DNA of 34,535 bases from Bacillota bacterium (lineage in GTDB: Bacteria > Bacillota > UBA4882 > UBA10575): contig JAKOVI010000047.1 in the NCBI GenBank assembly GCA_029782135.1, positions 1 through 34,535 on the forward strand, read 5' to 3'. Below are positions 25,696 through 27,279 of the stretch, piece by piece. Each line of letters begins with the position of its first letter. Position 1 is the first letter of the stretch. The position numbers and the translations under genes were made by a program. Under the pieces are notes generated by a model. The model saw only the letters and a list, made by a program, of their open reading frames with translations, was not told the DNA's origin and searched no databases.

Positions 25696-27243
25696 TTACA
25701 CCCGTAGATTAACCAGTCCATGCCAGGAATCTTCCACAAAGTACGATTCCTCGGCAGCCAACCACTCATCTGTTCCGTTTTGGGCCGGAGTCCTTGGTCT
25801 CGAGTGTTGGTCCGCTGTGAAAGAGTGTTCCTGCAACTGCGGTTCATTGCCGGTCTGTACATCGACTTGCAGCAGATCAACCGTTAATCCCGCTTCTTGC
25901 AAAGCGGAACGCAGTTGGAATAGATTGGCCTCGATTAACGACTGGACACCCTGTGTCTCTGCGACAAAGCGCGCGGTGACTAAATCGCGCTCCACAACCA
26001 GAGACAGTTCTAACTTTCCGAGTTCGGCCGGGTGCAACTGCAATTCGATCTTGGCGACCTGGTCTTTAACCATCAGCTTCGCCCCGTTGAGGATCTGACC
26101 AATCACTTCTTCCTTCGGCAGCGCGGACGGCACTTTTTCATCCAGTGCAGCCAGGCGTCCGTCTGTCTCCGCCGTCACCCCCGTCTCGCGGATCGCCGCT
26201 TCAAACACATGGTTTAGAAAAGCATCCTCATTCGCCCGCCGCTTGACAGTTGCCGGCGGGGTATCACCAGCCATCAATAAATCGACACTCTCCTGTTCCG
26301 GGGGCGAACCGGCCGTTTCTTCCTTCAGCCCGGATTGGGCCAGATCAATCTCCAGGACTGCAGAATTCTTGACCGGGCGGGTAGATGTTTCCTGCTGAGG
26401 GATCGCCTCGCTCATCTCTTTCTGCATGAGCGACGGTTGTTCGCTAATTCCTTCATCGGCAACGTTAAGGTCAAAAACCCCGGTTGGTGTCGCTTCCCCT
26501 TCAATGGCTGAACCGGCAGTCCACTCTGTAAACAACCCGATCTTCTCCTCAGGAAGCTCTTTAAGCGGGAATTCCTCAATGCTGTTGCTCGTGATTGCTG
26601 TAAACAACCCGATCTTCTCCTCAGGAAGCTCTTTGCTCGCGGTCCTCTCTTCCGGTGGCCAAGTACCTGTTTCCCCCGTGGTGAAAACATCTTCCGGTGG
26701 CCAAGTACCTGTTTCCCCCGTGGTGAAAACATCTTCCGCCTGAGCTGTTATGCCGGGAAAGCCGGCCGTCTGGATAGCGCCATTTACGTTAGGTACAACA
26801 TTCGCCTCCGGGGCTGTTTTCAAAGTATCATTCCCGGTACTCGCCAAGAAGACAGCGCTTGTTTCTTCGAACCCTTCCGCGGATAAATTCGCTGCATTGT
26901 CCAGTTGGAGGAATGCACCAGGCGTGGCGGCAAGCACTGGTTGACCACTTTCAACCGTGAGGGTATCGGCACCGGCCCCGTCCCCTTCTTCAACGCTCAT
27001 AACTGCTTCTTCCGGGAGGGAAGGAAAGGCCATCAGGACTCCGGCGAGCATGGATTCTTCCTGCTCACGGGGGGATTTCTCTTTGGCGCTTGCTTTTTCC
27101 CTCAACTCCCGCAGCAACCGGGAGAAATCTTCGCGTGATTTTAGTTCTGAACGTTCGAAGGCGCTTTTTTTAGCCTCAGACGACACTTTTCGCGGTATCT
27201 CCGGTTGTGCCTGCAGATTTAGCAGGTTAAACTCAACTGCCAC
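25696..27243 (-). CDS. fliK: flagellar hook-length control protein FliK
   Basis: Secreted ruler that measures the hook and triggers the FlhB export switch. The 515-residue protein has a low-complexity, Glu/Thr/Pro-rich N-terminal two thirds. The compact C-terminal Flg_hook domain lies at about 385-470, with the signature IELQLHPAELGKLELSLVV. The GTG at 27243 has AAAGGAGG 7 nt upstream. Within the ruler part are two perfect tandem copies of a 42-bp unit (26649-26732, encoding DVFTTGETGTWPPE twice) and a 37-bp perfect direct repeat (26526-26562 and 26598-26634, each encoding KELPEEKIGLFT). Both keep the reading frame. Identification rests on the C-terminal domain and the place before flgD. Confidence 0.93.
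   Translation of the reverse strand: MAVEFNLLNLQAQPEIPRKVSSEAKKSAFERSELKSREDFSRLLRELREKASAKEKSPREQEESMLAGVLMAFPSLPEEAVMSVEEGDGAGADTLTVESGQPVLAATPGAFLQLDNAANLSAEGFEETSAVFLASTGNDTLKTAPEANVVPNVNGAIQTAGFPGITAQAEDVFTTGETGTWPPEDVFTTGETGTWPPEERTASKELPEEKIGLFTAITSNSIEEFPLKELPEEKIGLFTEWTAGSAIEGEATPTGVFDLNVADEGISEQPSLMQKEMSEAIPQQETSTRPVKNSAVLEIDLAQSGLKEETAGSPPEQESVDLLMAGDTPPATVKRRANEDAFLNHVFEAAIRETGVTAETDGRLAALDEKVPSALPKEEVIGQILNGAKLMVKDQVAKIELQLHPAELGKLELSLVVERDLVTARFVAETQGVQSLIEANLFQLRSALQEAGLTVDLLQVDVQTGNEPQLQEHSFTADQHSRPRTPAQNGTDEWLAAEESYFVEDSWHGLVNLRV
26526..26634. repeat. 37-bp direct repeat pair inside fliK
   Basis: Identical 37-bp segments lie at 26526-26562 and 26598-26634, 72 bp apart in phase, each encoding KELPEEKIGLFT in FliK. 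Together with the adjacent 42-bp tandem repeat they make this a repeat-expanded segment. Confidence 0.9.
26649..26732. repeat. 42-bp perfect tandem duplication inside fliK
   Basis: Two identical 42-bp units sit head to tail, followed by the first 6 bases of a third. Each unit encodes 14 residues in the ruler region of FliK. Perfect identity at DNA level suggests a recent duplication. Confidence 0.95.
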
Positions 27244-27279
27244 TTTTTCACCTCCTTTCATAAGTGTTTTGCTTTATGT

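Follow-up and report, generated by a model that had tools for sequence, protein, structure and literature searches.

Two perfect direct repeats in the ruler region of a Bacillota fliK gene

The fliK gene and its repeats

The window, i.e. the whole stretch of DNA that was analysed (34.5 kb), is a single contig (C133) of a 2.38-Mb Bacillota genome in 163 contigs, and carries on its minus strand flagellar genes in the order fliI, fliJ, a MotE-like gene, fliK, flgD and flgE. This order is drawn from Pfam matches and from gene order conserved in the family, the fliI of the operon being named by eye from the sequence. An ORF of 521 codons at 25696-27261 (-), with a MotE/MgtE_N-like gene on one side and flgD on the other, is assigned by sequence as fliK, with predicted roles in setting hook length and in switching export. 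Its product matches Pfam Flg_hook (PF02120) over residues 394-474 (E 6.6e-18; 64.8 bits vs a curated cut-off of 29.8) and the FliK C-terminal chain PDB 2rrl (E 9e-4). The match to the NCBIfam FliK equivalog NF007514 is weak and falls below cut-off (26.6 bits vs 396); since that model appears to be built on enterobacterial FliK, such a score is no argument against a FliK in the wide sense. The sequence-only reading of this DNA had called the gene FliK, a name that the domain, structure and weak NCBIfam matches and the operon position all bear out. A scan of a database of genome contigs with the whole 521-aa protein gave no match; a scan with a C-terminal alignment gave 26 loci, mostly labelled uncultured Bacillota MAGs, with one Hydrogenispora sp.

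The features of the gene that are considered below are the following, given in the coordinates of the window:

25696-27261, minus strand: fliK, flagellar hook-length control protein (predicted), 521 aa; from the ORF, Pfam Flg_hook, PDB 2rrl and neighbours
26119-26994, minus strand: middle part of the ruler region, residues 90-381, modelled at low confidence and as coil; from predicted structure
26690-26731, minus strand: 42-nt (14-aa) tandem unit, copy 1, residues about 177-190
26648-26689, minus strand: 42-nt tandem unit, copy 2, identical to copy 1, residues about 191-204
26641-26647, minus strand: 7-nt remnant of a third 42-nt copy, CGGAAGA on the coding strand; from the 49-nt match at 42-nt spacing
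26598-26634, minus strand: 37-nt repeat, copy 1, KELPEEKIGLFT, residues about 210-221
26563-26597, minus strand: spacer between the 37-nt copies, 35 nt, unrepeated
26526-26562, minus strand: 37-nt repeat, copy 2, residues about 234-245
25840-26082, minus strand: C-terminal switch domain (Flg_hook); PF02120 match and folded core in the model

At the protein level the 42-nt unit gives EDVFTTGETGTWPP twice, a 14-aa unit rich in Gly, Thr and Pro, and the 37-nt unit gives KELPEEKIGLFT twice, the copies being offset by 24 residues. The identity of the tandem continues for a further 7 nt, so that 49 identical nt stand in register. Both repeats are perfect, as had been noticed in the first reading of the sequence, with zero differences between copies, silent sites included. 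The same reading held both to be multiples that keep the frame, which is correct for the 42-nt unit and incorrect for the 37-nt unit; 37 is not a multiple of 3, and the frame is kept there by the 72-nt spacing (24 codons) rather than by the size of the unit. The two are the only direct repeats of at least 28 nt at spacings up to 1 kb in the 34.5-kb window. Chance is rejected as their origin, the number of perfect repeats of at least 37 nt expected in a 1566-nt gene being about 1e-15. A dispersed element is rejected as well, because the 501-nt stretch around the repeats matches its own genome once. An antisense ORF of 105 aa at 26426-26743 (+) spans both repeats and is probably mechanical.

An AlphaFold2 model of the protein, built with 12 sequences of the family, is a weak one with a mean pLDDT of 40.6, and shows two N-terminal helices and a folded C-terminal core at pLDDT 60-75. 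Between these, residues 89-381 lie mostly below 50, with helix only at 347-357 and then from 383. Both repeats fall within this unstructured-predicted stretch, N-terminal to the switch domain; their placement in the ruler region, between the start of the protein and that domain, thus agrees with what had been claimed. The middle stretch is predicted to be a disordered tether of the ruler, low pLDDT from few sequences being no proof of disorder.

Age and probable route of the duplications

The age of the copies can be judged against the flanks of one relative, G001, the only same-genus genome compared, in whose assembly a fliK match is absent. Two of its contigs (C115 and C47) end within flgD and the MotE-like gene, i.e. 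on both sides of the missing fliK. Identity of these flanks to the window is 86.6% across 1411 nt and 83.8% across 6910 nt (about 16% divergence). At 17% divergence the probability of finding zero differences is about 1e-3 for 37 nt and 1e-4 for 49 nt. With zero differences against about 16% flanking divergence, either the copies are younger than the split from G001 or conversion or slippage has kept them alike; judged by the flanks of this one relative, their origin or homogenisation seems to postdate that split. Gene conversion could have held old copies identical, and the change is recent either way, whether the copies are young or kept alike. The sequence-only view that the change is very recent is upheld in so far as the copies appear to postdate the separation from the nearest genome.

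Identity at silent sites, as conversion would give, also bears on an account in which the units are functional motifs, e.g. contacts with the hook subunit or cap that slow export, duplicated and then kept identical by selection or conversion. A pausing of FliK export at the hook tip has been reported (PMC13344023), which would suit motifs of this kind. However, protein-level selection alone would leave silent sites free to differ, the motifs are not visible in a ten-member family alignment, and the repeat units are wholly different from lineage to lineage, so that this is the least probable of the accounts considered here.

The copies would most likely have come from misalignment of short direct repeats during replication. 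Such misalignment is described as the main route where repeats are shorter than about 200 bp, and it rises with the length, identity and closeness of the repeats (PMC8047081). The tandem copy would have arisen from two short direct repeats at a distance of 42 nt, of which the 7-nt remnant CGGAAGA is presumably the microhomology; the chance of at least 7 nt of extra match beyond the 42-nt unit is about 4e-4. For the tandem copy, the slipped-strand change first proposed for this region is matched by the mark that slippage between such short repeats leaves. For the 37-nt copies, which do not stand in tandem, simple slippage is a less direct explanation.

The locus would then hold two separate and recent in-frame duplications, of 14 codons and about 24 codons, in the ruler stretch of FliK. 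It is proposed that they have been retained chiefly because in-frame insertions are tolerated in this part of the protein, tolerance rather than selection being the favoured cause, and that copy number would be mutable at a low rate. Taken whole, the reading that these are recent replication-slippage duplications, tolerated in a disordered tether and lengthening the hook, is considered a good deal more probable than the alternatives together.

Repeats and copy number in other FliK proteins

Perfect direct repeats of at least 30 nt at spacings up to 400 nt were surveyed in 95 FliKs, one per genome: the window, 13 of its 15 relatives in the family (the remaining two give no match to FliK and stand outside the survey), one same-order genome and 80 hand-picked genomes. 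The last were taken from the score-sorted PF02120 matches listed, mostly one per family, with the final 15 mostly extra picks. The counts include truncated FliKs (L040, L133, L183) and a FliK interrupted by Ns (L043), and the spacing limit misses a 468-nt repeat of L133. Repeats were found in 8 of the 95 FliK N-regions (107.0 kb) vs 2 of 924 neighbouring ORFs (686.2 kb; p=1.7e-7), and in none of the 95 FliK C-terminal parts (38.9 kb), where even perfect repeats of at least 20 nt are absent from every one. All repeat pairs in the N-regions (34/34) have a spacing divisible by 3. The excess persists upon exclusion of the window (7/94, p=1.4e-6), of the whole family (5/81, p=5.6e-5) and of the family together with G039, whose repeat had been seen before sampling (4/80, p=5e-4). 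The other FliKs of the phylum with perfect in-frame repeats N-terminal to Flg_hook are those of G039, G301, G403, G052, G337, G006 and G011. One of the two control ORFs with a repeat of at least 30 nt (L157, 4895-5695, minus strand) is coiled-coil-like, with SEAEKKAK, and FliH-like by eye.

The excess is modest when FliK is set against composition-matched low-order segments of the neighbouring ORFs, defined by a FliK-like low share of order-promoting residues: 8 in 107.0 kb vs 1 in 106.8 kb (p=0.039; p=0.038 with the window excluded). This control replaced a looser version that had covered 496.7 of the 686.2 kb. Since the excess shrinks against such segments, much of it may come from a tolerance shown by low-order sequence in general. 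Self-similarity of the proteins as judged by shuffling (p<=0.01) gave no clear separation between FliK (23/94, one N-region of less than 60 aa being dropped) and controls (30/200).

Copy number of such arrays differs between species of one genus. In the FliK of G039 an array of 5-aa units matches NDAVV seven times, the congener G120 has about two degenerate units in the same place, and a further congener, G148, has no units of the 5-aa array at that site. Within the family of the window, a 14-aa unit stands in tandem in G007, its copies differing at 3 of 42 nt, and G011 has a 36-nt repeat at 69-nt spacing. G301, whose assembly is one contig of 3.56 Mb, has at L149 (C1:1299200-1309200) a FliK of 1056 aa in which the core of a 48-aa unit is matched 13 times, 12 of these at exact 48-aa spacing. 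A neighbouring gene encodes an FlgE-like hook protein of 791 aa and holds a perfect repeat of 47 nt, its copies spaced by 300 nt. A congener of G301, G413, has a 506-aa FliK without the array, at a divergence too great for counting copies, and a search for congeners of G052 for the same comparison found none. In E. coli, fliK has the same 1128-nt span in 59 of 60 genomes among the matches listed, spread down the ranking (the sixtieth matches 112 nt), and is covered to at least 80% in 5121 of 5136 matching genomes. The K-12 gene has no direct repeat of at least 18 nt, and its constant length accordingly shows constraint and not the stability of repeats.

These comparisons bear on whether fliK is here a tunable locus, i.e. 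one with frequent gain and loss of copies, a hook length that varies between cells or strains, and a mutability that is itself selected. The 49 nt of perfect tandem homology are a substrate for misalignment (PMC8047081), repeat number in the needle ruler YscP differs between Yersinia enterocolitica strains (PMC3469391), and array size is unequal among the three congeners above. Yet there are just two copies of each unit, the units are long and no sign of a dedicated mechanism is seen; the E. coli gene has one length in nearly all matches listed; and in Salmonella motility drops when FliK has no more than 363 aa or at least 520 aa, so that length is constrained (PMC6126814). A selected, frequently varying locus, a stronger form of the change between cells or strains that the sequence-only reading had raised, is on balance unlikely; no result here speaks for variation between cells, and duplications that are tolerated and mutable at a low rate are preferred.

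Assembly presents a separate question, that is whether an assembler made the duplicate copies or altered their true number. The FliKs of two surveyed genomes are damaged at repeats: in G006, of the same family (L043, C131:19000-29000), 78-nt perfect copies flank a run of about 75 N and the repeat is left unresolved by the assembly, and in G101 (L133, C50, a 3315-nt contig) the contig start falls inside FliK, where a 156-aa unit is present twice with 17 differences in 252 nt. Together with the 163 contigs of the source assembly, this damage would favour an artefact. Against it, the repeat region of the window is 213 nt overall and the individual pairs span 91 or 109 nt, lengths of pair that fit inside an ordinary short read, and neither the contig nor the reading frame is interrupted. 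Assemblers at repeats usually collapse or break and seldom invent in-frame copies. Contig ends that fall in motE, fliK or flgD in 4 of 15 family genomes (G001, G007, G013, G014) are without clear excess over the about 2.2 expected (P 0.16), and contig breaks near fliK were accordingly dropped as a sign of repeats. An artefact is thus very unlikely, and the copies are taken as genuine duplications. The survey nonetheless carries a warning that fliK may be lost, or given a wrong size, when genomes are assembled from short reads.

Hook length and relation to known rulers

In Salmonella, hook length stays controlled, from 42 nm up to 135 nm, with FliKs of 363-785 aa, each residue adding 0.2 nm (PMC6126814). 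On this slope the duplications would lengthen the hook by 2.8 nm for the 14-aa step and 4.8 nm for the 24-aa step, 7.6 nm in all, although the slope comes from another phylum and from helical inserts and may differ for the 14-aa unit with its Gly, Thr and Pro. The tether that passes through the growing hook would be lengthened and the C-terminal switch domain left unaffected. Since the physical length of FliK acts as the ruler, natural changes in that length are ready-made experiments on the setting of hook length; the mechanism here is ordinary, and a recent pair of in-frame duplications is useful as such an experiment.

A broader and rather doubtful extension of this reading, raised by analogy, is that the ruler stretch of FliK may serve across the Bacillota as a natural length dial, in which short-lived in-frame gains and losses of repeats would keep hook length variable. 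If this were so, hook length would vary among close lineages and inside them, in the way that repeats vary the YscP needle ruler, and the present case would be one caught fresh. A report of natural repeat variation in FliK was not found in the open-licence literature searched, and two Treponema papers naming FliK make no mention of repeats in that protein.

The nearest known counterpart is YscP, the needle ruler of Y. enterocolitica, whose strains differ in the number of 14-, 25- and 46-aa repeats, giving proteins of 452 vs 538 aa (PMC3469391), and which is reported to be similar to FliK in its C-terminal sequence (PMC1084347). Like YscP, the protein of the window is a predicted secreted ruler with in-frame repeats in its ruler stretch, a likeness in the pattern of repeats. 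The two differ in that the structure is a flagellum here and an injectisome there, and in that copy-number variation between strains is documented for YscP, whereas one genome of the species is read here. The change resembles that in the Salmonella FliK variants in being a change of length in the middle of the protein; unlike those variants, which were laboratory-made with YscP segments, it consists of natural duplications in an uncultured Bacillota genome. FliK arrays elsewhere in the phylum (G039, G301 and others) are the same kind of in-frame repeats N-terminal to Flg_hook, with differing unit and copy number. Perfect in-frame repeats in roughly one in twelve of the FliKs sampled, and their absence from the switch domain, thus extend the pattern of the YscP ruler to the flagellum of another phylum.
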